Shown: positions 1,135-24,011 of the stretch, one piece after another | Numbering within the stretch: position 1 is the first letter of the stretch | Layout: each line of letters starts with the position of its first letter | Origin: an uncultured Gammaproteobacteria bacterium | GTDB taxonomy: Bacteria; Pseudomonadota; Gammaproteobacteria; GCA-001735895 | Length of the DNA: 33,245 nt | Direction: 5' to 3' | NCBI GenBank assembly: GCA_937894085.1 | Contig: CALCSG010000338.1 | Span: 1 to 33,245, forward strand | Program-made: the position numbers and the translations under genes | Notes under the pieces: model-generated | Database searches by the model: none | Seen by the model: the letters and a program-made list of their open reading frames with translations, nothing else | What the model was told of the DNA's origin: nothing

Positions 1135-2109
1135 ATGGCTACAATTCGAAGAACAAAAAATAAAACTTGGCTGGCTGAGGTTAGAAAATTTGGTCAATAT
1201 AAAGCCAAGACCTTTGATACTAAATTAAAGGCTCAAGCATGGGCAGTTGAAGTTGAGCAAACCATGACGCCGGATACCCTTGTGCTTGGTAAATCTTTAA
1301 AAGATGCTTTTTTACGATATCAAAAGGAGGTTTCACCTACAAAAAAATCCTGGAAAAATGAGCATAATCGGCTTAATAAATTTTCTCGTAATAAAATGGC
1401 CAATTTGATATTAGAGGATATCAGGCAAACAGATATATACGAGTGGATCGATGAAGAGCTTAAACGAATTAAAGGTAGTTCTGTAAATCGAGATCTTAAT
1501 CTATTGTCGAGCGTATTCGAAAAAAGTATACGTTGGAGCTGGACTAATAATAACCCTGTCAGAGGTATTGAAAGACCGAAAAATCCACAGCCAAGAGATC
1601 GTCGTATAAGTGAGTATGAAATTACTCGAATTCTTGATGCGTTAGCTTTTAATGGCAGTGAAATTACTGAGCAGCGGCATGAGATTGCAGTTGCTCTACT
1701 ATTCGCTATCGAAACAGCAATGCGTCAAAGTGAAATATGGGGGCTCGACTGGGCTTTTATTAATTTAAATCGAAAATTCCTAAGGCTAAATGAAACTAAA
1801 AATGGAACGAGACGCGACGTCCCATTATCAGTTGAAGCCATTCGGTTGATGAAGTTATTGAAGCCAAAAAAGACAGGCAGAGTTTTTATTTCCAATCAAA
1901 ACTCATCTGCAACTATCTTCGGGAGGGCAGTTAAATTAGCAGGAATTGTTGATTTAACTTTTCACGACTCTCGACATGAAGGTATAACAAGATTATCAAG
2001 GAAATTAGATATTCTGGACCTTGCTCGAATGGTGGGACATCGAGATCCACGCTCACTGATGATTTACTACAATGCAACTGCCGAGGAAATTGCAAATAGG
2101 TTGGATTAA
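1135..2109 (+). CDS. int: Tyrosine recombinase (phage/island integrase)
   Basis: A 324-aa site-specific recombinase that would integrate an element next to tRNA-Leu. The catalytic residues are all in place: R197 (in AIETAMRQSEIWGL), K222, H277-x-x-R280 (HDSRHEG), H302 (MVGHRDP) and the nucleophile Tyr at 311 or 312. The N-terminal ~55 residues resemble the arm-binding region and residues ~55-150 the SAM-like core-binding domain, so the protein looks full length. ATG is preceded by GGAG at a suitable distance. The position just after tRNA-Leu, reading away from it, is the standard layout for a tRNA-targeting island. The gene is AT-rich compared with the flanking tRNAs. Whether it still acts on anything in the window is unknown. 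Confidence 0.93.
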   Translation: MATIRRTKNKTWLAEVRKFGQYKAKTFDTKLKAQAWAVEVEQTMTPDTLVLGKSLKDAFLRYQKEVSPTKKSWKNEHNRLNKFSRNKMANLILEDIRQTDIYEWIDEELKRIKGSSVNRDLNLLSSVFEKSIRWSWTNNNPVRGIERPKNPQPRDRRISEYEITRILDALAFNGSEITEQRHEIAVALLFAIETAMRQSEIWGLDWAFINLNRKFLRLNETKNGTRRDVPLSVEAIRLMKLLKPKKTGRVFISNQNSSATIFGRAVKLAGIVDLTFHDSRHEGITRLSRKLDILDLARMVGHRDPRSLMIYYNATAEEIANRLD

Positions 2110-2148: not shown

Positions 2149-2192
2149 GTATAAGTCTAGATGCCATCCGACAGACTAGAAAAGTTATTTAG
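2149..2192 (+). repeat. Left arm of a 44-bp inverted repeat (partner at 7611-7654)
   Basis: The reverse complement of this segment matches 7611-7654 at 40 of 44 bases by direct alignment; similarity stops at both ends. Each arm has a partial internal dyad (AGTCT...AGACT around GATGCCATC), like a recombinase or transposase binding site. It lies 40 bp after the integrase stop codon. Confidence 0.85.
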
Positions 2193-2348
2193 CTTGAAAA
2201 AATATACAACAGCGATAGAGTTGATTGGTCAAGTGGATATGACCTACAGCAGATGAATTTGCGCCGACAGCAGTATATCAATGCACTTAGAACTGCCGAT
2301 ACAGGGGACTACACAAAATTGTTTGAATTCGCCGGAGTAGGTCAGTAA
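2193..2348 (+). pseudogene. C-terminal remnant of a Fic-like / mobile-mystery-protein-B-like gene
   Basis: This is an open frame of 51 codons without a start codon, beginning at the edge of the inverted repeat and ending in TAA. It encodes a tail with VDWSSGYD, then RRQQYINALRTADTGDY and LFEFAGVGQ. From memory, the pattern W-x(n)-R-x-x-YI-x-ALR-x-AD-x-x-DY-x-x-L-x-EFA closes some Fic-domain proteins carried on mobile elements (mobile mystery protein B type). The catalytic HPFxxGNGR part is absent, so it cannot be functional. The truncation point coincides with the repeat arm, suggesting that insertion or recombination there removed the rest. The family call is a recollection, not a search result. 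Confidence 0.45.
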
Positions 2349-2914: not shown

Positions 2915-3982
2915 TCATTTTTCTAGTTCGTTTTTTAAACGATCCCTCAGGAGTGTTGTCGTTAGTGGAGTGGTAAATGTATGATAGGTTTTATTACGCC
3001 ATCCTTTTAGGTAGAACTCACCCGTATTCTCTAAAAGATAATTTGAATAAGATCTGCAATCCGCTAAAGTTTCTATTTCGTTTAATACCCACTCACCGCT
3101 TTCAATATCAACAAAAAAATCGAATCGTAAATTAGGGAAAGTTGAGGATTTTGCCAATGACAAGGCTATTTTTTTAAGCTTATGAAAAAACTTATCTTGC
3201 AACATTATTGCAGTTTCTTGACTTCCTTCTAGGTGCTCGCCATTGCTACCCAGACAAACTCCATGGCTATTTCTACAACCGACAAATAGCAACTCTCCCC
3301 AGGCAGTCATAAATTTCATCTCAGTAGGCCCTCTTTGCTCTTTATTATGCGGAAACAATTCCTGAATAATCAAGCCAGGTTCAATATGGAGAAGATGGGT
3401 GTCAATGTTGCCAGATGTAACACCCATAATGTCGTCAGAAACCCAATGCTTAAATGTCTCGTAATCTGAGACAACTTTTAAAGCATCGATATATTTAGAT
3501 TCGGAATTTTTTGCAGACAAAAACGTTGCTATATATTCATTTTTACATTGAAAAACCTTTAAGGTTCCAATACTTTCCGAGCCGTTGGTAGGCTTAATGA
3601 TAAATTCTTCACGACTCTCTACTTTAAGGATAACAATTTTGAACAATCGTTTTACTTCTGACTCATCATTCAACAATGAACTGAAACCAAAGGTTTTTTG
3701 AATTGGAACCAATCCATTTGTCCATTCCCGCAGCAATAGCTTATTTGCAAATAACGAAAGCGCTCCCACCTTGTTCGCGGTTAACACTGGTTTTTGAACG
3801 TTATGCATTAAACTGTGGTAGTCAAAGTCTCCAGAGTATTCTTCCATTTCGCGGCTACAATCGAATATTGATGATAGACAGAAATTTTCAGAATAATTTA
3901 AAGCGGGTTTGTAAATACTATCTTTATCTAAGCGATCAGAATTATTTGGATTTACCGCAATTTTTACAGCGTGATTTTTCAT
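2915..3982 (-). CDS. ATP-grasp-fold protein of a putative headgroup cluster
   Basis: A 355-aa protein with ATP-grasp features: a nucleotide-binding lysine and glycine-rich turn (FIIKPTNGSESIG, middle of the protein), a central strand set (EMKFMTAWGELLFVG), and a C-terminal metal-binding region (RFDFFVDIESG then LNEIETLADCRSY) in which D and the NEIE acidic residues would hold Mg-ATP. ATP-grasp enzymes usually ligate a carboxylate to an amine through an acyl phosphate. The substrate here is unknown. It is the last gene of a leftward run, 104 bp after the cytidylyltransferase. I chose ATG at 3982, preceded by GGAAG, over an in-frame TTG one codon earlier. Its role in acylating an amine headgroup is inferred only from the neighbours. 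It does not look like a classical D-Ala-D-Ala ligase or carbamoyl phosphate synthetase. Confidence 0.6.
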   Translation of the reverse strand: MKNHAVKIAVNPNNSDRLDKDSIYKPALNYSENFCLSSIFDCSREMEEYSGDFDYHSLMHNVQKPVLTANKVGALSLFANKLLLREWTNGLVPIQKTFGFSSLLNDESEVKRLFKIVILKVESREEFIIKPTNGSESIGTLKVFQCKNEYIATFLSAKNSESKYIDALKVVSDYETFKHWVSDDIMGVTSGNIDTHLLHIEPGLIIQELFPHNKEQRGPTEMKFMTAWGELLFVGCRNSHGVCLGSNGEHLEGSQETAIMLQDKFFHKLKKIALSLAKSSTFPNLRFDFFVDIESGEWVLNEIETLADCRSYSNYLLENTGEFYLKGWRNKTYHTFTTPLTTTLLRDRLKNELEK

Positions 3983-4086
3983 CAAAGTTTCTTCCGGATT
4001 TTAGGTCTATATACACCACAACTAAGGTCTGACCCCGCCATGCTGTAAGGCTTTAACCTTAGATTTAGCTTTCTACACAAGCGCTT

Positions 4087-4809
4087 TTAATTAAATATTT
4101 CTTTTGCCGTGATGAAATCTTCTTTGGTGTCTATTTCGATCCATTTTAAACCAGAAATATCAAGCGCATAAAAAGGTACATCCTTTTCGATCAATTTTTC
4201 GTATGCCGCTTCGTAGTATTGCTGATGGTTTTTTTCATCCTGCATCATGATTTCCAATTCAGCGAACAGCTGTATTGCTGTGCCTGCACTAATCTTTTCA
4301 ATACCGATAGATTCACCGATTGCTTCTGCTGGATTAACCGTTTTGCTGGCTTTGACCACACGGTTATTTCCTCTAATGATGACTTTGATCTCTTCAGCAT
4401 CGAGATGTATGTTTTTATCAATACACAATGCGTTGTCATGTTCACAGCCGATGAGTTGGCTAAGGATGGTTTTATCAAACACCACATCTGCATCAAATTT
4501 AATAAAAGAGGAGCCCGCAACAAGATCCCGGGTCAACATTAATGAGAAGCCGGTATTGGTGGTTGCATACTGCTCATTGGTGATGAAGTGGGCGTTTAAT
4601 TCAGGAAAATTATGCGTCACATACTCTTCAATCTGCTCCTGTAAATAACCCAGTACAAATACAATCTCCGTGATCCCGCAGTCACGTATATGCGAAATCA
4701 TCATCTCAAGAATGGTGTGCCCGCCAACCTTTAAAAGGCTTTTTGGGCAGTTGTCGGTTAAAGGCCTGATTCTTGAACCCACGCCTGCAGCCAGAATGAC
4801 AGCCTTCAT
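4087..4809 (-). CDS. LicC/PntC-like CTP-dependent nucleotidyltransferase
   Basis: A 240-aa sugar-nucleotidyltransferase-fold protein. The N-terminal signature is AVILAAGVGSRIRPLTDNCP followed by KSLL, with the conserved lysine. FDADVVFD carries the metal-binding aspartate, and GESIGIEKIS and WIEIDTKEDFITAKEIF are typical of phosphocholine and aminoethylphosphonate cytidylyltransferases (LicC, PntC). Such enzymes turn a phosphorylated or phosphonate amine plus CTP into the CDP-activated form, which suits the CDP-alcohol phosphotransferase encoded next to it. I chose the second ATG (4809): AAGGAAAG precedes it at a good distance, and the fold begins directly with MKAVILAAG. An ATG nine codons earlier is possible. 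The exact substrate (phosphocholine, phosphoethanolamine or 2-aminoethylphosphonate) cannot be told by eye. Confidence 0.82.
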   Translation of the reverse strand: MKAVILAAGVGSRIRPLTDNCPKSLLKVGGHTILEMMISHIRDCGITEIVFVLGYLQEQIEEYVTHNFPELNAHFITNEQYATTNTGFSLMLTRDLVAGSSFIKFDADVVFDKTILSQLIGCEHDNALCIDKNIHLDAEEIKVIIRGNNRVVKASKTVNPAEAIGESIGIEKISAGTAIQLFAELEIMMQDEKNHQQYYEAAYEKLIEKDVPFYALDISGLKWIEIDTKEDFITAKEIFN

Positions 4810-4893
4810 ATTTGTTCTTTCCTTAATTGTTTTCATTGTCTAGATGACTCGTTTAATAAAGCGTATTGTGTGAAAATGATCGCGCTCTTGCGA

Positions 4894-5670
4894 TTATTTA
4901 CCAAGAATTTTACTGCTGTTATTAGTCATATTGACACCACGCAGCCAGCTACGCATAAGGCCATGGATGACTTGGCTAATGGCAAACAGCCAAAGCATCG
5001 GCGTCAGTGTATTGAGCACCAGGGCCAACGACAGCATAAAAATGAAAACGCCCTCATTAAAGTTAATGATTTTCCGTTGCTCAAGCACAAACCATTTCAT
5101 ATTGGCTAACAAACCATAGCCAGGCCCTGCAACATCTTCACGTTTGAGATCAGCTTCTTTTTCGGATATTTTTTCCAAGTATTGGTTGTCGTCGGCTACC
5201 TCGGTATAAATGGCAACGTATTTGGAATAGCCACGCAGTGAGTAAAAGGAAACACCTATAAAGGCCAAAAACACCGGCACCACATCGTACGATTGTGCGT
5301 AAGCGGCATAGCCAATCGCGCCAAACCATAGGGTGACTTGTAGCTGATCAGTTAGCTTGTCAAAATAACAACCCGCTAAAGAGGGCGTGTTACGATAACG
5401 GGCCATCTGCCCATCCATGCAGTCCAGTATATGACTTAGATGGATTAGCAGAGCAGCGCTAATAAAGTTTACTGTCCCGCCTGCGATAATTAAGACAGCA
5501 GACAGGATGGCAACAACAAAAGAGAGCAAGGTGATCACGTTTGGGGTTAACCACTTAATATCCACGGCAAGATAATTTAGCGCGATGGCCAGTGGTGCGG
5601 TCACAAATGAAGACCACCATTCATCATTCTTGGTCTTGGTTGCCCATAGGCGAGTTAGTTTGTCATTCAT
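4894..5670 (-). CDS. CDP-alcohol phosphatidyltransferase
   Basis: A 258-aa integral membrane enzyme with a perfect CDP-alcohol phosphotransferase motif, D-x-x-D-G-x-x-A-R-x8-G-x3-D-x3-D, seen as DCMDGQMAR, then G, D and D in LAGCYFDKLTD. The four aspartates bind two metal ions. Several hydrophobic segments surround it (VITLLSFVVAILSAVLIIAG; FISAALLIHLSHIL; VPVFLAFIGVSFYSL; FIFMLSLALVLNTL). It would transfer a CDP-activated headgroup onto a lipid or polyol acceptor. ATG overlaps the upstream aminotransferase stop by 4 nt (ATGA), with a GGAGGG ribosome site, so translation is coupled. This places it in one pathway with the cytidylyltransferase and aminotransferase. Confidence 0.9.
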   Translation of the reverse strand: MNDKLTRLWATKTKNDEWWSSFVTAPLAIALNYLAVDIKWLTPNVITLLSFVVAILSAVLIIAGGTVNFISAALLIHLSHILDCMDGQMARYRNTPSLAGCYFDKLTDQLQVTLWFGAIGYAAYAQSYDVVPVFLAFIGVSFYSLRGYSKYVAIYTEVADDNQYLEKISEKEADLKREDVAGPGYGLLANMKWFVLEQRKIINFNEGVFIFMLSLALVLNTLTPMLWLFAISQVIHGLMRSWLRGVNMTNNSSKILGK

Positions 5671-6866
5671 ATTTCACCCTCCGCTACGCCGAGAACAGCA
5701 CAGGCTAAAGATTCCTTATGGTTATGAGCAACCATTCTAAGTACGTTTGTGATGGGGGGAACGACGGGTATTATCGGAATAAAACTGGCCAAAACGTCTC
5801 TGAGTGAATCGATAAAGAATTGGATGTCATCATGGGATAACTCGCCAATATTGCCCACCTGAAACACCTTGCCACGAAAACATCCCTTGCCCTCATAGAT
5901 GATGATCGACTTTTCTCGTAATCGATTACGAAATTGGGTGACCTCAATGTGTGCGGGGATGTTTACGGTGGTGAGCATCGAACACATCTCTTTTTCTTTG
6001 ATAAGAAAAGTGAGCCCGCATTTCAGCATTCCCCGCCGTAACAGGCTAGCCTTGTATTGTATACTGGCATATCGATTAGAGATTCCCTCGTTCAAAATAT
6101 TGATTAGCGCTTGTTCGAGGGCGAAAAAGAGGTGGGTGGCCGGTGTGTTGGGTGTCTGTGACACGGTGCTTATAAAATGGTAGAACTTGTACAGGTTAAG
6201 GTAGGTTGATTTTGCCGGATAGGATTTTAATCTTTCAAATTCTTCTTTCCTGCCAATCACGAACGACAGACCGGAATACGAACCAATAGCTTTGGAACTG
6301 GAGCTGGAGAAGAAGGCAATATGATTCTGTTCCATATCAATCACCTCCGTTCCTGCACTACTTACGCAGTCGACGATAAATATCGACCCATTGGCCTTTG
6401 ATAAAGTGCCGATGTCGTACAACGAATTGAGCATGCCTGAGCTGGTTTCATGATGCACCATGGCAACGACATCAATCTTGTTCTCATTCAGATAGGTTTC
6501 AACTTCCGAGGTGTTTATCTTGTTCCCCCAACCAAAGTCGAGCAGGAAGGTGTTTTTGTTGTGTATTTTCGAGGTGTTATAGAGCCTATCACCAAATTCA
6601 CCATTGGTGAGAATAAGGATGTTTTGTTCATCGACTACAGATGAGAGCATCGATTCATTGGCGGCCGTGCCTGAGCCAGTAATGACAACCGCACGGTAGT
6701 CAGCGGTATTCTTGATCTCAAATAGTTGCAGTAATTTTTGTTCGATACTCTGTAACAAATAATCAAAGTCTGCCTCACGATGACAGATATCTTCTTTTGC
6801 AATAGCCGTTCGAACATTGCTTGCCACGTTTACTGGGCCAGGTGTAAATAGCAAATACTTTTTCAT
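5667..6866 (-). CDS. Class V aminotransferase, 2-aminoethylphosphonate--pyruvate transaminase (PhnW)-like
   Basis: A 399-aa PLP enzyme and the first gene of the cluster. It opens LLFTPGPVNVASNV and has VITGSGTAANE (cofactor phosphate region), HHETSSG, an aspartate contacting the pyridine ring (D166 in FIVDCVSSAG) and the Schiff-base lysine K192 in SSSSKAIGS. The PhnW family converts phosphonoacetaldehyde and alanine to 2-aminoethylphosphonate or the reverse. PhnW proteins are near 365 aa; this one has a ~35-residue extra tail (IIPVVPPITNVLRM onward). No PEP mutase or phosphonopyruvate decarboxylase gene is in the window, so a phosphonate substrate is not proven; another small aldehyde or amino-alcohol is possible. 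Confidence 0.72.
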   Translation of the reverse strand: MKKYLLFTPGPVNVASNVRTAIAKEDICHREADFDYLLQSIEQKLLQLFEIKNTADYRAVVITGSGTAANESMLSSVVDEQNILILTNGEFGDRLYNTSKIHNKNTFLLDFGWGNKINTSEVETYLNENKIDVVAMVHHETSSGMLNSLYDIGTLSKANGSIFIVDCVSSAGTEVIDMEQNHIAFFSSSSSKAIGSYSGLSFVIGRKEEFERLKSYPAKSTYLNLYKFYHFISTVSQTPNTPATHLFFALEQALINILNEGISNRYASIQYKASLLRRGMLKCGLTFLIKEKEMCSMLTTVNIPAHIEVTQFRNRLREKSIIIYEGKGCFRGKVFQVGNIGELSHDDIQFFIDSLRDVLASFIPIIPVVPPITNVLRMVAHNHKESLACAVLGVAEGEI

Positions 6867-7160
6867 CTGTTTTAGTACCTTCTGATATGAGAGGAGTCAT
6901 CGCAGGCCTAAAATTTTTATTATGTCGGAGCACTCGTTCTACCATACAGTCATTATTTGAACCAGAGAAAAGCGATCACCCACACAGAAAATGAGCTGGA
7001 TCATGTGAATATCAATCGTTCAAATAGCGATAGCTGACGCCATAAGCGTCAATTATTTATGACACTGAATCGAGGAGTAGACCAGGCAACCACAGTTAAG
7101 GCAGTGCATAGACTGTTCGACTTATTAATAAAAAGTATAGGCTTTGAGGGCCGGGTTTTT
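6867..7160. other. Upstream region of the four-gene cluster
   Basis: No gene is seen. It should contain the leftward promoter of the cluster, but I could not pick convincing -35/-10 boxes. AGAAGG lies about 13 nt before the aminotransferase ATG, a rather distant ribosome site. Confidence 0.4.
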
Positions 7161-7223
7161 GGCTTGAAGGCTTGGGGCTTGTAGGCTTGAGGGCTTGAGG
7201 GCTTGAGGGCTTGAGGGCTTGAG
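7161..7223. repeat. 8-bp tandem repeat (TTGAGGGC)
   Basis: GGCTTGA-type words are repeated across about 60 bp, becoming a perfect 8-bp tandem array of TTGAGGGC (about five units) from about 7195. The left part is degenerate (GGCTTGAAGG, CTTGGGGCTT). The 96-codon leftward frame across it (7049-7339) gives a KPSSPQA-type repeat, an artefact of the array. It is a candidate variable-number repeat. Confidence 0.85.
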
Positions 7224-7610
7224 TCTCGCGGGCGAGGTCGATAGTAAATACTATCAACTGCATTAGCAACAAATATCGCGGCAGTATTAGGATTGGTCAT
7301 ATCCAGTTTTGTGGCCACTAATACACTTTGACGAATCAATCACCCATCTTAATCCCGCTGGCAGCCGTGCAACAATTCGATATAAATGAATATCCTTTCT
7401 CGGAGCAGATTTCCCCAGTGTCATCCATTAGAGATCTTAGGCCAAATAGGTGACATATCTAGGGTCTCCACGAATAGGGCGTTTGTTCCCCCTATACTCA
7501 ACTTTATTTTACATCCGATTTTTTTCCGACGCTTACACCTTGTTTAGTCTCTTATTGGCACATTTTTGCCTATTGCGCCGCACAAAAGAATGTCTGTTGT
7601 CAGGCCAAAT
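7224..7610. other. Gene-free stretch
   Basis: I see no supported coding or RNA gene between the octanucleotide array and the right inverted-repeat arm. Confidence 0.45.
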
Positions 7611-7654
7611 CTAAATAGCTTTTCGAGTCTGTCAGATGGCATCTAGACTTGTAC
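7611..7654 (-). repeat. Right arm of the 44-bp inverted repeat (partner at 2149-2192)
   Basis: It matches the reverse complement of 2149-2192 with four substitutions and no gaps. Together the arms bracket the Fic remnant, the MITE and the headgroup cluster, 5.5 kb in all. Confidence 0.85.
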
Positions 7655-11223: not shown

Positions 11224-12266
11224 CCTGATTACGTACAAAGAACCGCTGGCTCACGTAGTGAGCTACTAAGTGATTGATAATACAGTTTTTCAGTCACAAT
11301 TGGAGCCTACCATGCCACGTAATCTCATTCAGTTTCAATCCGGACTTTCTTTGCCCGATTTTCTTAAACAATACGGTTCACTTTCACAATGTGAATCCGC
11401 GCTCGAATCCTCACGATGGCCGCAAGGATTTGTCTGCCCACACTGCCATGATACTCGACATAGCGCTTACTTTCGCAAGGATAAAAAACGGTTCCAATGT
11501 GCTCGTTGTAGGCGTCAAAGCAGCCTGACCTCCGGCACAGTTTTTGACTCATCCAAGCTACCACTGACCACCTGATTTCTTGCGCTGTATTTTATCTCCC
11601 AGTCCAAGAACAATGTCGCTGCCCTTGATATTTCTCGACTGCTCGGTGTGAGTTATAACACCGCTTAGCTGATCAAACATAAACTCCTGAAGGTAATGCG
11701 GGAGCGCAAACACCATCGCGAACTCACAGGCCGTGTCGAGATCGACGATGCCTACCTCGGTGGCGAGCGCAAAGGCAAGCCAGGTCGGGGCTCACCGAAT
11801 AAAGTTCCTTTTATCGCTACCGTTCAAACCTCTGATGATGGGCGACCATTCTATGTGCGTTTTGACTGTATCCAACGCTTTGACCATTCATCTATCGAGT
11901 CATGATCTCGGCACTGACCGCTTCGACCCGTGCTTATTCCAATGGGCTGCCTGCATTTACCATCCTGTCCGAAATGGTCGATCAACATACTTCATTTGTG
12001 ACAGGAATCGGGCAACAAGCGGCAAGGCATCCTCAGTTCCGCTGGGTCAACACATTACTCGGTAACTTGAAAACCGCCATCACCGGTACCTATCATGCCA
12101 TCAAGTTCCAGAAATATGCTCAGCGTTATCTGGCAGAAGCGCAATATCGTTTTAACAGGCGCTTTGATTTAAAATCCATTCTGCCCCGTTTACTCCGGGC
12201 AGCTGTTAAGACCAAACCCAAACCGCTTTATGTCACCAGACTGGCGGAACTTTGTACGTAATCAGG
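11224..12266 (+). mobile_element. Degenerate IS1595-family insertion sequence
   Basis: The element is 1043 bp with terminal repeats CCTGATTACGTACAAAG... and ...TTTGTACGTAATCAGG (16 terminal bases pair with one mismatch). Its single transposase gene is broken. The flanks AAAAATTT and AAAAAATA match at only 6 of 8 bases, so the target duplication has decayed or the ends were rearranged. Confidence 0.88.
11312..12261 (+). pseudogene. IS1595-family transposase, inactivated
   Basis: The coding remnants align end to end with an IS1595-type transposase: an N-terminal zinc ribbon (WPQGFVCPHCHD then FQCARCRRQSSLTSGTVFDS), a DDE-type first acidic cluster (VEIDDAYLGGERKGKPG) and a C-terminal FRWVNTLLGNLKTAITGTYH followed by RRFDLKSILPRL. 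It is interrupted by in-frame TGA (11573-11575) and TAG (11666-11668) and by a frameshift near 11900. It cannot make a full protein. It is the only transposase with ends matching the MITE at 2385, but in its present form it could not have moved it. Confidence 0.88.
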
Positions 12267-13646: not shown

Positions 13647-14429
13647 ATGGATTCGAGTTTTTCCTGCTTAATAAAGTTCGGCTTTAAATCTGGTCAAAGT
13701 GGAGCGCATTCTGCTCGCAGCATGATGCTCGCTGAGCTGCAAGCCCTGTTTCAAGTCACTAATTCAGATGCAACTCAGAAGGATTATGAAGCTGAGATTT
13801 GTGTGCATAATACGCTCGACAAGCCCACCGTTAAATCCCGTTCTCTGACTTACCGTCATTTGGTTGATCTCTATGGGATGAACCCGGATATCCCTTTATT
13901 TAGGGTGTTCCGTAAACTGTGGTCTATCGAACTGACTGCGCAACCGGTTCTGGCCATGCAAATGGCGTTAGTAAGAGATCCATTACTGGCGCGAACTAGC
14001 AATTTTATGTGTGAGACGCCAGAAGGCTCGATGATCAACCGGCAGGATGTGGAACAGATACTCAAATCGCCAGACCCTGACAGGTTCAGCCCTGCATCAC
14101 TCAAATCCTTCGCTCAAAATATTAATGGAAGCTGGACCCAGGCTGGCTTTCTCAAAGGAAGAACAAAAAAATTCCGTGTGCAACCAGAAGTTACTCCGGT
14201 AAATATCGCATTTTCGTTCTTCCTGGGCTATCTTACCGGTGCAACAGGTGAGCGCCTGTTTAAAACGACATATACCAAGTTATTCAGCCTGACAGAACAT
14301 CAGATTTCTGAGCTAGCGATAGCTGCCGGTCATCGGGGGATTATTGATTTCAAGCAATCCGGAGGCGTTACAGAAATACGTTTCCCTGCTTATCTAACCA
14401 GGGAAGAGGAGTTAATGCTGCATGAGTAG
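13647..14429 (+). CDS. brxA: BREX protein BrxA (DUF1819)
   Basis: A 260-aa protein, first gene of the type 1 BREX operon. BrxA is a small helical DNA-binding protein needed in full BREX defence. The start region reads FSCLIKFGFKSGQSGAHSAR and is followed by SMMLAELQALF; a middle part has LVDLYGMNPDIPLFRVFRKLW and the C-terminal half a winged-helix-like region. The assignment rests on length, composition and the exact operon order with brxB, brxC and pglX. Its end overlaps brxB by 8 nt. The ATG lacks a strong ribosome site, so the start could be slightly different. Confidence 0.85.
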   Translation: MDSSFSCLIKFGFKSGQSGAHSARSMMLAELQALFQVTNSDATQKDYEAEICVHNTLDKPTVKSRSLTYRHLVDLYGMNPDIPLFRVFRKLWSIELTAQPVLAMQMALVRDPLLARTSNFMCETPEGSMINRQDVEQILKSPDPDRFSPASLKSFAQNINGSWTQAGFLKGRTKKFRVQPEVTPVNIAFSFFLGYLTGATGERLFKTTYTKLFSLTEHQISELAIAAGHRGIIDFKQSGGVTEIRFPAYLTREEELMLHE

Positions 14430-14970
14430 CCGAATTGCCCGTTTGGTTCACAGTTATCAGAGCTTTATCGAGCTTCCCTGGGAGCAAGGTCTTGCAGGAG
14501 CGCAAAAAGTGATCTTCGCCGTTTACGATAAAACTGAAGAATTGCGCATTAGAGCACATGTTGAAGAGTTCGAAATCGCAACCAAAGCCGCGCAGCACCA
14601 GTGGCGCTTAATCGATATCACCGATGCTTTTCCACAGTGGCTGGTCAACCACGACTATTGCGAAGGCTACTTTGAATCTCCAGACGATTTACAGGACTGC
14701 CTTCCCGAATTTACCGAAAGCATCGTTGCTTTGATCAATGCTGAGCTGCTTGAAGCGGATGATAATACCGTGGTCGCGTTACAGGGTGTGGCGGCAGTGT
14801 ATGGTTTTAGTCATGTCTCCGAGATCATTGCCAAAATTGCCAATAATGTAAAAGGTCGCTTGTTAGTATTATTTCCGGGCGAATACGAAAACAATAATTA
14901 TCGCCTGCTGGATGCCCGACCCGGCTGGAACTACCAGGCTATACCGATCACCGCGAATCAGAATCTATAA
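14422..14970 (+). CDS. brxB: BREX protein BrxB (DUF1788)
   Basis: A 182-aa cytosolic protein of the DUF1788 family. Family-typical parts are the opening LVHSYQSFIELPWEQGLAGA, the RVIF-type strand KVIFAVYDKTEELRIRAHVE, and near the end GRLLVLFPGEYENNNYRLLD followed by ARPGWNYQAIPI. Its biochemical role in BREX is not established; it is one of the core genes of type 1 systems. Translation is coupled to brxA by an 8-nt overlap, and brxC follows after 24 nt with an AAGGAG ribosome site. Confidence 0.9.
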   Translation: MSSRIARLVHSYQSFIELPWEQGLAGAQKVIFAVYDKTEELRIRAHVEEFEIATKAAQHQWRLIDITDAFPQWLVNHDYCEGYFESPDDLQDCLPEFTESIVALINAELLEADDNTVVALQGVAAVYGFSHVSEIIAKIANNVKGRLLVLFPGEYENNNYRLLDARPGWNYQAIPITANQNL

Positions 14971-14994
14971 GAACAAAACCGTAAGGAGTTATTC

Positions 14995-17900
14995 ATGTTA
15001 AACAAGGATATTTATGTCAAAGATCCTCTAGCTAACCAACTCGCCAATAATGGCGTGGCCGAAGTTAAGGATGACAATTCGGAGCAGGCGCTGGCAACCC
15101 TCAGGTACGAACTCGAAACCTTCGTCTGCGATGGTGAATACGAGAAAGGCCTGGAAAATATTCTTAATACCTTTCTCACCAACCTGAATAAAGATGCGGA
15201 ACAGCCGGGAATCTGGATCAGTGGCTTTTACGGCTCCGGCAAGTCGCACCTGGCAAAAATGCTACGCGCGCTGTGGACTGATTTCAGCTTTAGCGATGGC
15301 ACCTCGGCCAGAGGAATAACAACACTGCCGCAGGATATTCGAGATCATTTAAAAGAGCTGACCAACCAGGGCAATCGTTATGGTGGTTTGCACGCGGCCT
15401 CGGGCACACTCGGTCAGGGCGCAAGCAATTGGGTTCGAGCCGCCTTACTCGGCATTGTTTTTAAATCAGCGGGCTTGCCTGAGCTTTATCATCTGGGCCG
15501 ATTTGTAATCTGGTTACGCCAGCAGGGCATAGAACAGCAGGTTAAACAGGCTGTTGAGGCAGAAGGTAAAGACTGGATGCACGAGCTAAGCGCATTATTC
15601 ATGTCACCAGTGATCGCTAATGCTTTGCTAAAAGCAAAACCAGAGCTCGCCAGTGATGAAAGAGAGCTGCGAGAGCAGTTGAGGGCCGAATTCAAAAGGG
15701 TTGACGATGTCTCAAACGATCAAATGGTGCAGGGAATAAAAGATGCGCTAACCGTTGACGGTAAATTCCCATTAACCCTGATCGTGCTCGACGAGGTACA
15801 GCAATACATTGGCACTGATGCGGATAAAGCCTACCAGGTGCAGGAGGCAGTTGAGGCCTGTTGCAAACACTTTAGCAGTCAGTTGTTGTTTGTCAGTACC
15901 GGCCAGAATGCCTTGTCGGGCATGCCTATTTTGATGAAATTGATGGGCCGTTTCCAAGTGCCGGTGCAACTTTCTGATACCGATGTCGAGTCGGTCATCC
16001 GCAAGATCATTCTACAAAAAAAATCATCCGCGGCTTCAGAAGTCGAGAATGTCTGGAAAACCAACCTGGGTGAAATCAACCGCCATTTGCGCGGCACCAA
16101 AATCGAATCCACCACCCAGGATGAAGCCTACATGACGGCCGATTATCCCATATTGCCGGTGCGCCGACGGTTATGGGAAAAAATACTGCGCATCGTGGAT
16201 ACCACTGGCACCGTTTCGCAGTTGCGTAACCAGTTGAAGGTGGTCCATGAAGCGGCAAAAATCACCGCGAATCATCCATTGGGTAGTGTAGTGACAGGCG
16301 AGTTTATCTATGGACAGATTGCACCGAACCTATTGCAGACCGGGGTAATCTCCAAAGAGTTCTATGAAAGCATCGCCCGCCTGGCAACCGGTGCAGAAGA
16401 TGAGAAGCTACAATCAAAATTGCTCGCGCTGATCTTTCTAATCGGCAAACTGCCCAGCGACGCCATCGCCAGTATTGGTGTTAAAGCCACTGAAAATACA
16501 CTAGCAGATTTACTGGTTGAAAACCTCAGTGAAGGATCAACCGAGCTGCGCAAGCACGTACCGCGACAATTAGAGGTGTTGGAGAAATCCGGAACCATCA
16601 TGGTGATGGATAGCGGTGGCGAGAACGAGTACCGGCTGCAAACCCGCGAAAGTAGCGCCTGGCACGATACCTATCGCCAGCAGGAAGCGGAAATAGCGGG
16701 TAACCCGCAGCGTATTGATACCGAACGGGACGACCTGCTAGCCAGGCAGATTCGCCAGCAGAGTAGTGAAATCCGCTTGCAGCAGGGTGGCAGTAATGAG
16801 CCGCGCAAGCTCAACCTGTGCTTCGACGCCGAGCTGCCGCGCGATGCGCATAAACAGCTCTATGCTTGGATTCAGCACGGCTGGCAGACCGATGAAAAAT
16901 CTGTCATTGCCGATGCCCGTGCGGATGACAGCAAAAACGCCAGCCTGTATGTGTTTGTTCCGGCGCGTAATCGTAGTGATCTTAACCACGCTATCACTAC
17001 CGAAAAAGCAGCTTCCGCAACCATGGATTTACGCGGTATTCCCTCCAGTACCGAAGGCAAAGATGCCCGAGCCGCGATGGAAACTCGAAAACAGGATGCA
17101 AAGAAATCCAAGCTGCGCTTGCTAGCTGAAATCTTCGATGGGGTGCGCGTTTTTATCTCTGGCGGCAGTGAAATCGATGGTAACAATCTAAAAGAAAAAC
17201 TTGAGAAAGGCGCCAAAACCGCGCTCGAGCGCTTATACAAGCAATTCGATGTCGCAGATGAAGCTCACTGGGGTAAGGTCGTCGAAAAAGCCCGTAAAGC
17301 CGGCGGCGAAACCGCGCTGAGTGCAATCAATTTCAAGGGTGAGAATGTCCTGCACCCGGTGTGCGCGCAGATTCTTAAATACATTGGTTCCGGTAAAAAA
17401 GGCCTCGAGGTTCGAGAAAATTTTCAGGAAGCTCCCTACGGCTGGCCGCAGGATGCTATCGATGGCGCGCTTTACGCGCTACTGGCCAGCGGTGACGTAA
17501 AAGCCAAGAATGCTGCCAGCCAGACCGTTGATGCTAAAACTCTGGAGCGCAAACACATCACCCAGGCGCGCTTCGAAGTCGAAAACGTCACCCTAAGTAC
17601 TGCGCAAAAACTGGCGGTACGCAAATTACTGACCGAAACCATCGGTTGTAAACCTGGTGAAGAGGAAAGCAAAACCATCGAATTTTTGCAGTACGCTCGC
17701 GAACTCGCTGAAAGCGCTGGTGGTGCCGCACCTCGCCCACATAAACCTGATACCGCCCGAATTGACGAAATTGCAGCTGAAGCAGGCAACAGCCGACTGG
17801 TTAAGTTATACGATTACAGAGACGATATTCTGAGCGATGTTCAATCATGGAAAAAACAACAGGCAGGCATAGAACAGCGCATGTCAAACTGGGGTGATCT

Positions 17901-18450
17901 GGTGACGTTGGCTGCATTGAGCAAAGGGTTGAGTTTTCAAAATGAACTCAATGTCGAAGTCTCAGCAATCCAGTCGGGTCGCCGATTGTTGGAAGACCCC
18001 GACCCGGTGCAAAACCTGGTGAAGGAAACCACGGATAATTTACGCTCAGCAATTTTGCATCATTACGACGGATATAAGAAGACCTACGAGCAGGCGTTAA
18101 TTCATGTCGAAGCCGATGCCAACTGGATTCAACATGATCCCGCCAAGCAACAGGCATTACTGGCCAAACACGGCATTAAAGCGCCCGTGCAACCAGCACT
18201 GAATTCAACCGAAGAAGTGATCGATGCGATGGAATCTTGCTCGCTCGAACAATGGAACGATCGCCGTGATGCCTTACAAAATAAATTTGAAAATGCACGT
18301 GAAGAAGCCGCGCAATTGCTGATGCCAAAAGCCGTACGTGCGCAGTTGCCGCGTGCCACATTGCAAACTGCTGAGGATATCGATGACTGGCTGTCTCAGG
18401 CCAAAGCCGAGTTGGAAAGCAAACTTGAACAAGGTCCGGTTATTGTCTAG
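14995..18450 (+). CDS. brxC: BREX AAA+ ATPase BrxC
   Basis: A 1151-aa ATPase (DUF499/PglY-like), the usual size for type 1 BrxC. Walker A is GFYGSGKS at residues 77-84, and Walker B is LIVLDEVQQY around residues 262-271 (D266, E267). The long C-terminal half is helical with coiled-coil character (KLRLLAEIFDGVRVF; LEKGAKTALERLYKQF) and a final charged helix. BrxC is essential for BREX defence and is thought to couple ATP hydrolysis to complex assembly or remodelling on DNA. ATG 14995 follows AAGGAG. GC-rich compared with the flanking island DNA. The frame is intact. Confidence 0.94.
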   Translation: MLNKDIYVKDPLANQLANNGVAEVKDDNSEQALATLRYELETFVCDGEYEKGLENILNTFLTNLNKDAEQPGIWISGFYGSGKSHLAKMLRALWTDFSFSDGTSARGITTLPQDIRDHLKELTNQGNRYGGLHAASGTLGQGASNWVRAALLGIVFKSAGLPELYHLGRFVIWLRQQGIEQQVKQAVEAEGKDWMHELSALFMSPVIANALLKAKPELASDERELREQLRAEFKRVDDVSNDQMVQGIKDALTVDGKFPLTLIVLDEVQQYIGTDADKAYQVQEAVEACCKHFSSQLLFVSTGQNALSGMPILMKLMGRFQVPVQLSDTDVESVIRKIILQKKSSAASEVENVWKTNLGEINRHLRGTKIESTTQDEAYMTADYPILPVRRRLWEKILRIVDTTGTVSQLRNQLKVVHEAAKITANHPLGSVVTGEFIYGQIAPNLLQTGVISKEFYESIARLATGAEDEKLQSKLLALIFLIGKLPSDAIASIGVKATENTLADLLVENLSEGSTELRKHVPRQLEVLEKSGTIMVMDSGGENEYRLQTRESSAWHDTYRQQEAEIAGNPQRIDTERDDLLARQIRQQSSEIRLQQGGSNEPRKLNLCFDAELPRDAHKQLYAWIQHGWQTDEKSVIADARADDSKNASLYVFVPARNRSDLNHAITTEKAASATMDLRGIPSSTEGKDARAAMETRKQDAKKSKLRLLAEIFDGVRVFISGGSEIDGNNLKEKLEKGAKTALERLYKQFDVADEAHWGKVVEKARKAGGETALSAINFKGENVLHPVCAQILKYIGSGKKGLEVRENFQEAPYGWPQDAIDGALYALLASGDVKAKNAASQTVDAKTLERKHITQARFEVENVTLSTAQKLAVRKLLTETIGCKPGEEESKTIEFLQYARELAESAGGAAPRPHKPDTARIDEIAAEAGNSRLVKLYDYRDDILSDVQSWKKQQAGIEQRMSNWGDLVTLAALSKGLSFQNELNVEVSAIQSGRRLLEDPDPVQNLVKETTDNLRSAILHHYDGYKKTYEQALIHVEADANWIQHDPAKQQALLAKHGIKAPVQPALNSTEEVIDAMESCSLEQWNDRRDALQNKFENAREEAAQLLMPKAVRAQLPRATLQTAEDIDDWLSQAKAELESKLEQGPVIV

Positions 18451-18514
18451 GTCGGTTGCAACAACCGCTGCTTAAAACGATCTTGTATGATTCGATTACT
18501 CATGGAGTGACAAA

Positions 18515-21500
18515 ATGCGAAACCCGTTAGATAAAGCCCTGCGCAATCAGCTCGAAAAAGCAGTTGAAAAAGCGCGTGATATTGCCGAACTGGCCGCGCA
18601 AGAAGAATTGCAACGCCTGTCCGTGGCCGATTCAAAAGCGGCTGATTATCTCACCGCAGAGCAACGAGAATTGCGTAACCGTCTGCGCGCCCATGCCCGC
18701 TTTCTGGGCGATACACGTAATGCCAACGGTGAACAGGAGCTTAATCTGCTGGTTGTCGAAATTGCCTACGAGCATTGGCACCGCATGTTGTTTTCACGCT
18801 TCCTGGCAGAAAACGATTTGCTCATGTATGAAGATGGCATCACGCCACTGGCGATTAGTGATTGTTTTGAGCTGGCCGAAGAGGAAACCGGCGACAGCTC
18901 CAACGGCTGGCGCTATGCCGCTAACTATGCGGCCAAAATGCTGCCACAGATATTCCGTAACGATTCCCCCGTGTTTGAAATTGAGTTTGCCCCAAATCAT
19001 CAGAAAACACTGGAGCAACTGCTGGAAGGATTAGATCAAGCCACCTTCCAGGCCCAGGATGCGCTGGGCTGGGTGTATCAATTCTGGCAAAGCAGGCGAA
19101 AAGCTGAAGTCAATGCCTCGGAAGTTAAAATAGGGGCCAGAGAGTTGAGTCCGGTCACCCAGCTCTTTACCGAACCCTATATGGTGAGCTTTCTTCTGGA
19201 CAATGCCCTGGGTGCCTGGTGGGCCAATCAACAACTGACCGAACAGGATTACGTCAGCGCGCAAAGCGAAGCCGAGCTGCGCCAAAAAGCCGCCATCGAA
19301 GGTGTACCCCTGCATTATCTGCGCTTTATTAGAACCTATACCCCCGAACAGAAAACCATCATCGATCAGGCACAAAGTGACGGTGAATCGATAGAAAAGC
19401 CAGAACCCCTGGGCCCCTGGGAGCCTGCCGCGGGTCAATTCGCGCAGTGGCCGGATCACCTGGCGGAACTCAAAACCCTCGACCCCTGTTGCGGCTCCGG
19501 TCACTTCCTGGTGGCGGTGTTTTTAATGCTGGTACCGCTGCGCATGCAACGAGAGGACTTAAGCGAACAACAAGCCATCGATGCAGTACTCAGGCAAAAT
19601 ATCTACGGCCTGGAATTGGATCAACGATGTGTTGAAATTGCAGCCTTTGCCCTCGCGCTGGAAGCCTGGCGTTATCCGAATGGTGGCGGTTATCGGCAGT
19701 TACCCGAGTTGCATCTTGCCTGTTCCGGCCTATCGGTAAGAGCGGCTAAGGAAGAATGGAAGCAATTGGGTCTGGGGAAAAGGAATCTGACCATCGCATT
19801 GGATTGGATGCACAAGGAGTTTAGTGATGCGCCGGTATTGGGCAGCCTGATTAATCCGGCTAAATCCTCCGCCGCCAATATCGTCTCCTGGGATGAGCTA
19901 TCGCAAACCCTCAATTCCGCGCTGGAGCAGGAATCCAGCAATGAACATAACAGCGAGGCCAGCCAGCGGAGCTTTGAGGCCACCGTCGTGGCGCAAGGCT
20001 TGGCCAAGGCCGCGACTATGTTGGCCGGGAAATACCAGTGGGTGGTGACTAATGTGCCCTATTTGGCGCGGGGTAAGCAGGATGACACCTTGAAGGAGTT
20101 TATTGAGAAACATTACCCGGCAGGGAAAAACGATTTGGCGACCGCGTTTCTGGATCGATGTTTGGAGTTTTGTGTTGAGGGTGGAAGTAGCTCTGTGGTG
20201 TTACCGCAGAACTGGTTATTTTTGACTTCTTATTCGAAGTTTCGGGAGAAATTATTGACGAGGGATACCTGGAATATATTGGCTCGTATGGGTTCCGGGG
20301 CCTTCGATACCATTAGTGGGGAGGTTGTTAAGGCGATACTGATTACTTTAACTAGGGGCAATCTGCTGTCAGATAATCAGGGGTTGTTTGCTAGTGAAGA
20401 TTTCAAACACGACTTGCGAGGTGTGGATGTTTCAGAGTTGAAGTCAGCTGCTGATAAGGCTGAACAGCTGTTGGATTGTAAAGTTAAGACGGTGGGGCAA
20501 GTAAACCAACTTAAAAATCCAGATTCACGTATAGCTTTTGATGAAAAATCTGAAGTTGCATTACTTTCAGCTTATTCAAGTGATAGCTCAGGCTGTCTAA
20601 CTAGTGATGGTGAAAGTTTCTATAGATACATGTGGGAGCAAACTGTACACGGTAATGATTGGTTACCATTACAATCGACAGTGAAAGGCCAATTGCACTT
20701 CTCAGGGTTATCGCAAGTTGTGTTGTGGGAAAATGAAAAGGGACGGTTAGCCCGATTAGCTGCTGAAATGAAGGGGACTAACCATGCTGTACAAAATTGG
20801 AAGAGAGGCCAGGAATTTTGGGGAAGGAAAGCTGTAGTCATTAGTAGTATGGGAAATTTGCCAGTAACCCTGTATCAGGGCACTCGTTTCGATAATAACA
20901 CTGCTGTTCTTATGCCGAATGATGATAGGTTTTTACTACCATTGTGGTGTTTCTGTTCTTCGCCCGAATACAACGAAGTAGTGAGGCAAATTGACCAAAG
21001 CCTTAAAGTTACAAATGCCACGCTAGTAAAAATACCTTTCGACCTCGACCGCTGGGCCAAGGTCGCCCAAGAGAATTACCCTCAAGGTCTTCCTGAGCCT
21101 TATACAAACGATCCGACTCAATGGATTTTCCACGGCCACCCCTGCGGCTCCGTAATCTGGGACGAAGCAACAAAATGGACAGTCAAATCCGACTTGCGTA
21201 TCGATGACACTGTCCTGCAAGTCGCCGTAGCCCGCTTGCTCGGCTACCAATGGCCCGCCGAACTCGACTCCGAAATGGAACTCGCCAGTGAACAACGCGA
21301 ATGGGTAGAAGAAGCCAAAAAACTCTTGCCCTATGCCGATGACGACGGCATTGTCTGCCTGCCCGCTGTGCGTGGGGAAAAAGGCGCCGACCAACGCTTG
21401 GAAGCCCTGCTGCAAGCCGCCTACGGCGATGCCTGGTCCAGTCAAACCCGCAACCAGCTTCTAGAGGCCGTGGGTTACAAAAACAAAACCCTGGATACCT

Positions 21501-22072
21501 GGTTACGTGAAAAGTTTTTCGAACAGCACTGCAAGCTATTCCAGCACCGCCCCTTTATCTGGCAACTCTGGGATGGCCTAAAAGACGGCTTTTCCGCCCT
21601 GGTCAATTACCACCAGTTGGATAAGAAAAACCTGGAGCGCCTAATCTACACCTACCTGGACGACTGGATTCGTACCCAAAGCCATCAGCAGAGCGAAGGC
21701 GTGGATGGCGCCGCCGAACGTCTCATCGCCGCCCAAAACCTCAAACATCGCCTGGAGCAAATCCTCGAAGGCGAAGCCCCCTACGATATCTTCGTGCGTT
21801 GGAAGCCCCTGGCAGAACAACCTGTCGGCTGGAACCCCGACCTCAACGACGGTGTGCGCCTGAACATTCGCCCCTTTATGTCAGTAGCCGACGTAGGTAA
21901 AAAAGGCGCCGGTATCCTACGCGCAAAACCCAGTATTCACTGGAAAAAAGACCGCGGTAAAGATGTCGAATCCGCCCCCTGGTTCACCCTCGGCCTGGAA
22001 TACGGCGGTAAAGAAGGCGACCGCATTAACGAGCACCATTTATCCCTGGTTGAAAAAGCCAAAGCTCATTAG
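18515..22072 (+). CDS. pglX: BREX adenine-specific DNA methyltransferase PglX
   Basis: A 1185-aa methyltransferase that marks the host at a non-palindromic BREX site (N6-adenine in studied systems). The SAM-binding motif I is DPCCGSGHFL from residue 323. The catalytic motif is NVPY from residue 513, a variant of NPPY. The N-terminal ~300 residues are the BREX-specific helical domain; the target-recognition part follows the catalytic motif. ATG 18515 has GGAGTG upstream, 64 bp after brxC. Between roughly 20180 and 21030 the DNA turns AT-rich while both sides are GC-rich: hand counts give 19 of 60 G+C for 20521-20580 and 41 of 60 for 21361-21420. The shift covers the expected recognition domain and suggests recombinational swapping. 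The frame is intact. Confidence 0.95.
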   Translation: MRNPLDKALRNQLEKAVEKARDIAELAAQEELQRLSVADSKAADYLTAEQRELRNRLRAHARFLGDTRNANGEQELNLLVVEIAYEHWHRMLFSRFLAENDLLMYEDGITPLAISDCFELAEEETGDSSNGWRYAANYAAKMLPQIFRNDSPVFEIEFAPNHQKTLEQLLEGLDQATFQAQDALGWVYQFWQSRRKAEVNASEVKIGARELSPVTQLFTEPYMVSFLLDNALGAWWANQQLTEQDYVSAQSEAELRQKAAIEGVPLHYLRFIRTYTPEQKTIIDQAQSDGESIEKPEPLGPWEPAAGQFAQWPDHLAELKTLDPCCGSGHFLVAVFLMLVPLRMQREDLSEQQAIDAVLRQNIYGLELDQRCVEIAAFALALEAWRYPNGGGYRQLPELHLACSGLSVRAAKEEWKQLGLGKRNLTIALDWMHKEFSDAPVLGSLINPAKSSAANIVSWDELSQTLNSALEQESSNEHNSEASQRSFEATVVAQGLAKAATMLAGKYQWVVTNVPYLARGKQDDTLKEFIEKHYPAGKNDLATAFLDRCLEFCVEGGSSSVVLPQNWLFLTSYSKFREKLLTRDTWNILARMGSGAFDTISGEVVKAILITLTRGNLLSDNQGLFASEDFKHDLRGVDVSELKSAADKAEQLLDCKVKTVGQVNQLKNPDSRIAFDEKSEVALLSAYSSDSSGCLTSDGESFYRYMWEQTVHGNDWLPLQSTVKGQLHFSGLSQVVLWENEKGRLARLAAEMKGTNHAVQNWKRGQEFWGRKAVVISSMGNLPVTLYQGTRFDNNTAVLMPNDDRFLLPLWCFCSSPEYNEVVRQIDQSLKVTNATLVKIPFDLDRWAKVAQENYPQGLPEPYTNDPTQWIFHGHPCGSVIWDEATKWTVKSDLRIDDTVLQVAVARLLGYQWPAELDSEMELASEQREWVEEAKKLLPYADDDGIVCLPAVRGEKGADQRLEALLQAAYGDAWSSQTRNQLLEAVGYKNKTLDTWLREKFFEQHCKLFQHRPFIWQLWDGLKDGFSALVNYHQLDKKNLERLIYTYLDDWIRTQSHQQSEGVDGAAERLIAAQNLKHRLEQILEGEAPYDIFVRWKPLAEQPVGWNPDLNDGVRLNIRPFMSVADVGKKGAGILRAKPSIHWKKDRGKDVESAPWFTLGLEYGGKEGDRINEHHLSLVEKAKAH

Positions 22073-22089
22073 CCGTCAAGGAATTGGTA

Positions 22090-23907
22090 ATGATTAATTC
22101 TGTATATGCTTACCCAATCTCTACATTACTCAATGGGGATAACAATATTGTCTACCATATTCCGCGCTATCAGCGTGAGTACAGTTGGGGCAAGGCTCAT
22201 TGGGAGAGTCTGTTTGATGATTTGTTAGACAATGACCCCGGTTATTTTTTAGGGTCTATTATCTGCATCAATCAATCTACGGACTCTCTTGCGAGTCAGC
22301 AGCTCGAGCTGGTCGATGGTCAGCAAAGAATGACGACCGTATCCCTATTTTTGGCCGCGTTGTATTCAAGCCTCAAAGACGATCGCGATCAATTGGATGA
22401 AGATCAAAATATGGATTTTATGGCGTTGAAGTATCGGCTGATGCACAAGAAAAGCAATCAAACGCGCCTGGAATTGCAAAAGCAAAATTCGAACTTTCAG
22501 GATTATCAGGCCATTTTGTCAAGAATAGGTCTTCTGGAGGATATTGAGCCATTGTCTAATGCAGGTAATCGCCGCGTGTTTAAAGCCTACAGGTATTTTC
22601 AGCAGCGCATAGAGAGTTTTTGTGAATCCTCAAATGATACTGTAGAGGCACGTTTTCAGTTGCTGAATTCCATTAATCAATCCGTGCTGGTCAAAATTGA
22701 GGTTAATAGTCATTCCGATGCCTATGTATTGTTTGAGTCGTTGAATAATCGGGGAGCACCTTTAACCGCGATTGATTTGATAAAGAATAAACTGTTGGCT
22801 GAGGTTGGGAAGATTAATCAGGAAAAGATCGATCCTGCGTTTGATAAATGGAAACGTCTGCTTGATTATTTAACCGATGACTACGCCATACAGGAACGGT
22901 TTTTCAGGCATTACTACAATGCTTTTCAAAACGAGTTGCGGCAGATCACGAAAATCCCTTTTGCTACTCGTTCAAAGCTGATGAAGATATACGAAAAGCT
23001 CATCAACCATGATGTGTTTGGCTTTTTGCAGGATATAACTGTGGCGGGTAGTTGCTACTCACAGATCATCGGTGAAACCGAGCTACAGAATTTACCAACG
23101 TTGGAAAAGCCACTTGAGGATTTAGAGCATATTCAAGGAGCGCCGTCCTATATTCTGCTGGTTTTTCTATGGATCAAGAAAGACGACTTGGGCTTGGAGG
23201 AACAACAGTTAAAGCAGGTGATTCAAATCCTGGTCAAATTCTTCGTTCGACGCAATCTGACCGACACGCCACCCACACGCGATTTGGATCGCTTGTTTGT
23301 GAGTATTATCACCAATATCAATGACGGCAATTTGTCGGGACAGGCTTTGGTCGACCAGGTGCGAGCATCACTAGTCAGCGTCTCCACATCGCTTGATGAT
23401 ATGGAGTCTGCGCTGAAGGGCGATTTATATATCGATAATGCAGCGGTTGCGCGATTTGTATTATGCGCGTTAGAAGAAACCTCGATGACGCGCGAAACAA
23501 CGATCGATCTTTGGAAACTGGATAAGCACAAGAAATATGTATGGACGATAGAGCACATTTTCCCCCAGGGGGAAAATATACCCATGCACTGGGTCGATAT
23601 GATAGCGCAAGGCGACAAAGATTTGGCCAATGAATACCGGGATAAATATGTGCATCAGCTGGGCAATCTGACTATATCCGGCTTTAATAGCGCTTTGGGT
23701 ACCAAGAGCTTTATTGACAAGAGAGATCGTGTAGATAAACAAGGACGACAGGTTGGGTATAAAAATGGCTTGACGCTTAATAGAACTTTGGCCGATAAAG
23801 ACAAGTGGAGCATCGAGGATATTCAGTACAGAACAGGTTTGTTAGCCAGTCGAGTTATGGAGCTTTTCGCGTTTGAGGGTGAGGATCGTTTAACCAGGGG
23901 CGACTGA
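22090..23907 (+). CDS. DUF262/DUF1524 (GmrSD-like) putative nuclease within BREX
   Basis: A 605-aa protein with the N-terminal DUF262 ParB-like NTPase fold: IPRYQREYSW, FLGSI, and the DGQQR motif at residues 76-80, followed by SLNNRGAPLTAIDLIKN. The C-terminal DUF1524 part has an HNH-like IEHIFPQG with H489 and LGNLTISGFNSALGTKSF. GmrSD and BrxU proteins with this architecture cut modified DNA (e.g. glucosylated hydroxymethylcytosine) and partner with BREX in some loci, covering phages that evade it. That activity is inferred here. I chose ATG 22090, with AAGGA 8 nt before it, over a TTG two codons upstream. It is 17 nt after pglX, so co-transcribed. Confidence 0.87.
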   Translation: MINSVYAYPISTLLNGDNNIVYHIPRYQREYSWGKAHWESLFDDLLDNDPGYFLGSIICINQSTDSLASQQLELVDGQQRMTTVSLFLAALYSSLKDDRDQLDEDQNMDFMALKYRLMHKKSNQTRLELQKQNSNFQDYQAILSRIGLLEDIEPLSNAGNRRVFKAYRYFQQRIESFCESSNDTVEARFQLLNSINQSVLVKIEVNSHSDAYVLFESLNNRGAPLTAIDLIKNKLLAEVGKINQEKIDPAFDKWKRLLDYLTDDYAIQERFFRHYYNAFQNELRQITKIPFATRSKLMKIYEKLINHDVFGFLQDITVAGSCYSQIIGETELQNLPTLEKPLEDLEHIQGAPSYILLVFLWIKKDDLGLEEQQLKQVIQILVKFFVRRNLTDTPPTRDLDRLFVSIITNINDGNLSGQALVDQVRASLVSVSTSLDDMESALKGDLYIDNAAVARFVLCALEETSMTRETTIDLWKLDKHKKYVWTIEHIFPQGENIPMHWVDMIAQGDKDLANEYRDKYVHQLGNLTISGFNSALGTKSFIDKRDRVDKQGRQVGYKNGLTLNRTLADKDKWSIEDIQYRTGLLASRVMELFAFEGEDRLTRGD

Positions 23908-23947
23908 CATTGGCATTATTGGAGAGTCGCTATAAGAGCCAGTCAAT

Positions 23948-24000: not shown

Positions 24001-24011
24001 AAATACATGTT

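Follow-up and report, generated by a model that had tools for sequence, protein, structure and literature searches.

A PhnW-like PLP enzyme moves with a cytidylyltransferase and a CDP-alcohol phosphotransferase in a three-gene cassette that may make a phospholipid headgroup

Genes and surroundings of the locus

The window, i.e. the whole 33,245-nucleotide stretch of DNA analysed here, carries between positions 2915 and 6866 the four genes that had been predicted to run in one direction, and all four open reading frames are found there on the minus strand (Table 1). The gene for the PLP enzyme overlaps that for the transferase by 4 bases, and these are followed by genes for a cytidylyltransferase and a fourth protein. 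The fourth gene has an alternative start, a TTG at 3985 that would yield 356 aa, while a GGAAG sequence resembling a ribosome-binding site precedes the ATG at 3982. A short tandem repeat with an 8-base unit (GGGCTTGA) lies upstream of the first three genes, at 7152-7222.

Table 1. Features of the locus, in window coordinates.
Feature	Position	Strand	Basis or remark
PhnW/AepZ-like class-V PLP enzyme, 399 aa	5667-6866	-	Family matches, PDB match, tree, alignment
CDP-alcohol phosphotransferase, 258 aa, motif intact	4894-5670	-	PF01066, motif, predicted structure
LicC/PntC-like CTP:phospho-X cytidylyltransferase, 249 aa	4087-4836	-	NTP_transferase, PDB matches
Putative ATP-grasp ligase, 355 aa from ATG at 3982	2915-3982	-	Motifs, two homologues
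Upstream DNA, presumed promoter region	6867-7280	-	Common to L001, L002 and L043 with the trio (to 7419 in L043)
Tyrosine recombinase (phage integrase family)	1135-2109	+	Beside left repeat arm, downstream of tRNA genes; context, cassette membership not implied
Inverted repeat, left arm, 47 nt, 89%	2149-2195		Flanks the four genes; 40 bases after tyrosine recombinase gene
Inverted repeat, right arm, 47 nt, 89%	7608-7654		Flanks the four genes

The transferase is a CDP-alcohol phosphotransferase by its PF01066 match, its motif and its fold. The motif, originally described as perfect, is indeed complete (D83-x2-DG-x2-AR-x8-G-x3-D-x3-D), and none of its four Asp varies among 32 homologues. Sequence searches match the protein to AF2299 and choline phosphotransferase, and in a profile search AF2299 and the cholinephosphotransferases come nearest, with enzymes using CDP-diacylglycerol behind them. 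Since the best matches of the predicted structure (pLDDT 82) include AF2299 and IPCT-DIPPS, the acceptor may be non-lipid. For the cytidylyltransferase, the first PDB match is LicC of S. pneumoniae (E 5e-19), followed by the PntC domain of a Treponema PntC-AEPT fusion (E 1e-16), and the order is the same when it is used as a profile (LicC 8e-23, Treponema PntC 3e-22); these matches to solved structures predict that it is of the PntC/LicC type. Both proteins also match the bifunctional IPCT-DIPPS family of di-myo-inositol phosphate synthesis, which, like AF2299, combines a cytidylyltransferase with a CDP-alcohol phosphotransferase, whereas the window has separate genes for these activities plus a PLP enzyme.

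The fourth protein falls into no Pfam or NCBIfam family at default threshold. It nevertheless contains motifs (IIKPTNGSESIG ... LRFDFFVD...WVLNEIET) that look ATP-grasp-like, as well as one sub-threshold match to ATPgrasp_ST (E 0.009), and is thus probably an ATP-grasp ligase. Its AlphaFold model (pLDDT 45) was too poor for a fold search.

On one side of the four genes is a tyrosine recombinase near tRNA genes, on the other a BREX region. The inverted repeat that flanks them may reflect inversion or be the relic ends of an element; as a repeated mobile end it was discarded, the genome holding these two core copies only. The BREX-type defence region (13647-30206) encodes BrxA, BrxB, BrxC, PglX, a GmrSD-like restriction protein (22084-23907), PglZ and BrxL. 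Elsewhere in the window, pieces of an IS1595-type transposase occur as separate, apparently broken ORFs (11270-12261), and a second tyrosine recombinase (32326-33204) and a KfrA-like plasmid protein (31245-31865) are encoded near the right contig end.

Distribution and transfer of the cassette

A scan of 84,980 species genomes by exact short patterns, by which divergent members will be missed, returned 44 loci, many of them in MAGs. The original prediction had treated the four genes as a set. This holds for the trio of PLP enzyme, transferase and cytidylyltransferase, which gene maps show to recur in this order at 27 of the 44 loci, but not for the fourth gene, which proved to be an occasional partner. 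Besides many Rhodobacteraceae, the 27 trio loci include MAGs under the labels Gammaproteobacteria, Chlamydiae, Bacteroidetes and Aerophobetes. The carriers are mostly marine, and some, such as Lentibacter algarum and Litoreibacter albidus, are in culture. Five further loci are incomplete at contig ends, and in L005 an ATP-grasp gene follows the transferase. In a second arrangement (11 of the 44 loci, two of them truncated upstream), the same transferase family, with members 45-66% identical to the window's, is preceded by a BhcA-like aminotransferase and a different cytidylyltransferase that shares about 26% identity with the window's. Relatives of the ATP-grasp gene are found, among the 44 loci, at two others only, L005 (57%) and L039 (63%), in each case directly after the transferase; these were the two homologues with which the fourth gene was compared. 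That the three occur in both cassette types is as if they acted on a common product. Searches of viral contigs and plasmids gave no relatives of this gene. At L036-L038 and L040, which are of the second type, the transferase is followed by a uridine-kinase-like gene, as it is at L008, the sole window-type locus to have one; a different P-loop gene near the cassettes of L012 and L013 was left out of this count. In a Labilibaculum MAG (L007), a gene for a HAD-type phosphatase (1943-2476) lies between those for the transferase and the cytidylyltransferase. The MAG that carries L028 holds a second copy of the trio (L034, 8825-11496), which is broken into several frames and apparently decaying.

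The trio is a horizontally moving three-gene cassette that has been transferred jointly with its upstream DNA. The three closest relatives, L001, L002 and L043, align to the window only over the trio region and this upstream DNA, up to 7280-7419 and with 86-89% DNA identity, and in L002, whose contig runs on, the alignment goes no further than the end of the cytidylyltransferase gene. At E <= 1e-20, the transferase is found in one of 369 genomes of the class, which is the window's own, and among 248 Rhodobacteraceae it is found in one, the centre genome. One full-length copy is on a plasmid, in Sulfitobacter sp. SK012. The pairwise identities of the three proteins co-vary, and the differences between the window's trio and those of L002 and L043 concentrate at third codon positions; these first three genes are under purifying selection. 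Conserved order and joint transfer rule out that they are chance neighbours. The possibility of phage cargo was rejected because neither IMG/VR nor a phage collection yielded a relative of the transferase.

The PLP enzyme and the phosphonate question

The PLP enzyme resembles the transaminases of 2-aminoethylphosphonate (AEP) but departs from them. Its Pfam match is Aminotran_5, its first PDB match is the AEPT domain of the Treponema PntC-AEPT fusion, and, as in the PhnW/AEP transaminases, it has a class-V fold in which Lys192 aligns with the PLP lysine. However, its best NCBIfam match, TIGR03301 (PhnW-AepZ), scores 287.5 bits, below the equivalog cut-off of 360.8, and TIGR02326 scores 218.8 bits, below 400.8. 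At position 336 the alignment has Gln in all 32 window-type enzymes and Arg in every reference protein, the AEP transaminases included, as well as in all nine second-type enzymes. We take this Arg to hold the acid group of the substrate in the PLP family, a role in which it could be replaced by another residue. Asn13, His29, Asn240 and Phe330 also set the window-type enzymes apart. The window-type enzymes form their own supported clade (100/99) in a tree built with BhcA and AGXT-like proteins, the Treponema AEPT, a PepM-linked AEPT and PhnW proteins, five of these from settings of phosphonate catabolism and two with solved structures. The clade is sister to all AEP transaminases and thus outside the PhnW/AEPT clade; the program warned of long branches, and the deep placement of single rows is unsure. 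For contrast, we used a Burkholderia locus that encodes a cytidylyltransferase together with PepM, Ppd and AEPT.

The absence of PEP mutase (PepM) and phosphonopyruvate decarboxylase (Ppd), remarked on when the locus was first described, extends beyond the window, as a search of its genome assembly found neither over cut-off. The best PepM match there reaches 112 bits against a cut-off of 319.55 and has an EDQ...CGH sequence, such as a methylisocitrate lyase would presumably show. Among the carriers, PepM (TIGR02320) passes its cut-off in none of 25 of the window type and in two of 10 of the second type (G009 and G032), where it has the EDKxxxxxNS motif and adjoins Ppd; Ppd (TIGR03297) exceeds its own cut-off in these two only of the 35 carrier genomes. 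This absence from nearly all carriers, together with Gln336 in place of Arg, makes de novo phosphonate synthesis unlikely. A phosphonate cluster with pepM, ppd, AEPT, an NTP transferase and a CDP-alcohol phosphatidyltransferase has been described (PMC5987646) and would, with the two PepM-bearing carriers, offer a precedent for a phosphonolipid made de novo by means of pepM and ppd genes located elsewhere in the genome. Such an explanation, already disfavoured, is highly improbable, because both of those carriers have the second cassette type, and the 33 carriers with neither protein over cut-off include every window-type one and the window's genome. More generally, AEP clusters contain pepM, ppd, AEPT and a PntC-type nucleotidyltransferase, and one with a CDP-alcohol phosphatidyltransferase is described in Nostoc and Burkholderia (PMC6697681, PMC5987646). 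Like the window, such clusters have an AEPT-like PLP enzyme and a LicC/PntC-like cytidylyltransferase, and some also have a CDP-alcohol phosphotransferase, but they differ from it by pepM and ppd and by their PLP enzyme, that of the window belonging to a sister clade with Gln336. Alternatively, AEP could be salvaged, i.e. imported, converted to CMP-AEP by the cytidylyltransferase and built into a phosphonolipid by the transferase, with the PLP enzyme balancing AEP and phosphonoacetaldehyde. AEP is the most abundant marine phosphonate, and its reuse by genomes lacking pepM has been proposed for another pathway (PMC9381506); moreover, the Treponema PntC-AEPT fusion is a match for the PLP enzyme as well as for the cytidylyltransferase. 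We nevertheless consider salvage unlikely: the invariable Gln336 speaks against it, as does a PLP enzyme that it would not need and that is always kept, and at the loci examined neither an AEP transporter nor phnX adjoined the cassettes.

Two further explanations leave phosphonates aside. The product could be a soluble phosphodiester rather than a lipid, in the way that IPCT-DIPPS serves di-myo-inositol phosphate, and the match of both transferase and cytidylyltransferase to that bifunctional family points in this direction. But cholinephosphotransferases match the transferase profile as well as or better than IPCT-DIPPS, and the inositol pathway has no place for a PLP enzyme, which renders this explanation rather doubtful. 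The product could also be plain phosphatidylethanolamine, if a bacterial CDP-ethanolamine route took the place of phosphatidylserine decarboxylase (PF02666). This family was not found in the window's genome, yet occurs in 53 of 57 genomes in a set of relatives, and it is absent from nine Rhodobacteraceae carriers. However, in G653, a relative of the same genus, psd belongs to a stretch that corresponds to the break between contigs C505 and C117 in the window's genome, which makes an assembly gap the likely reason for its absence there. Furthermore, in a set of 248 Rhodobacteraceae genomes (the family of G010), 141 have no PF02666 match and the cassette is in the centre genome only, and psd is present in most carriers outside the Rhodobacteraceae. 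With no association in Rhodobacteraceae and a gap at a contig break in the window's genome, replacement of the decarboxylase was rejected and its absence is given no weight here; this route appears improbable.

A candidate headgroup pathway

Our preferred explanation, to which we give almost an even chance, is that the trio is a Kennedy-like cassette by which an amino-alcohol phosphate is made, activated as its CDP derivative and moved to a lipid; substrate, product and direction of the steps are what we infer from gene content, as is transfer to diacylglycerol. The PLP enzyme would convert a common metabolite to a small amino-alcohol phosphate, for example dihydroxyacetone phosphate to serinol phosphate or phosphoserine to ethanolamine phosphate, which the cytidylyltransferase would turn into a CDP-amino alcohol. 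The membrane phosphotransferase would then transfer the phospho-amino alcohol to diacylglycerol or a similar lipid and, where present, the ATP-grasp ligase may couple the free amine to an acyl or amino-acid group. This sequence of making an amine, activating it with CTP and transferring it is the one originally proposed for the locus, and gene content, conservation of the trio and the matches of the transferase (AF2299, choline/ethanolamine phosphotransferases) agree with it. It is supported by the occurrence of the trio at 27 loci of several phyla, its transfer as a unit with upstream DNA and its co-varying identities, by the near-absence of PepM and Ppd and the separate clade of PLP enzymes with Gln336, and by a transferase profile nearest to AF2299 and the cholinephosphotransferases. 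Spread across phyla suggests a starting compound that most cells have, and the uridine-kinase-like gene that adjoins the cassette at five loci suits a phosphate ester. Counting against this Kennedy-like cassette, the nearest characterised relatives of the PLP enzyme act on AEP, the Treponema PntC that the cytidylyltransferase resembles prefers AEP, and the kinase adjoins a single window-type locus.

The parallel with the Kennedy pathway (CCT and choline/ethanolamine phosphotransferase) and with LicC lies in the activation of a small phospho-amine by CTP and its transfer by a CDP-alcohol phosphotransferase; the difference lies in the cassette's own PLP enzyme and in a kinase that adjoins few cassettes. 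A precedent by function for the first step is provided by Campylobacter jejuni, where the PLP enzymes Cj1437 and Cj1436 make amino-alcohol phosphates from central metabolites (serinol phosphate from DHAP and ethanolamine phosphate from phosphoserine, respectively), and an ATP-dependent ligase (Cj1436/Cj1437/Cj1438 system) uses the products, although these become capsule amides rather than CDP-linked headgroups (PMC11800397). No account of such a trio lacking pepM turned up in the literature searched. The phosphonolipid that had been offered as one possible product is weakened by the missing PepM and Ppd and by the change from Arg to Gln, while the other, a new phospholipid headgroup, is the better half of that proposal and still a candidate. 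Taken one step further, the cassette is possibly, though we say so tentatively, a PepM-free relative of the phosphonolipid clusters, in which a PLP enzyme that acquired a new activity with the loss of Arg leads to an undescribed amino-phospholipid headgroup, and which spreads between phyla as a trio, sometimes with the ATP-grasp gene.

If this is right, some AEP-transaminase-like genes are not phosphonate genes, which would bear on surveys in which phnW serves to trace the marine phosphonate cycle. Marine bacteria would then possess a transferable headgroup pathway, and, several carriers being named strains, its product would be directly searchable.
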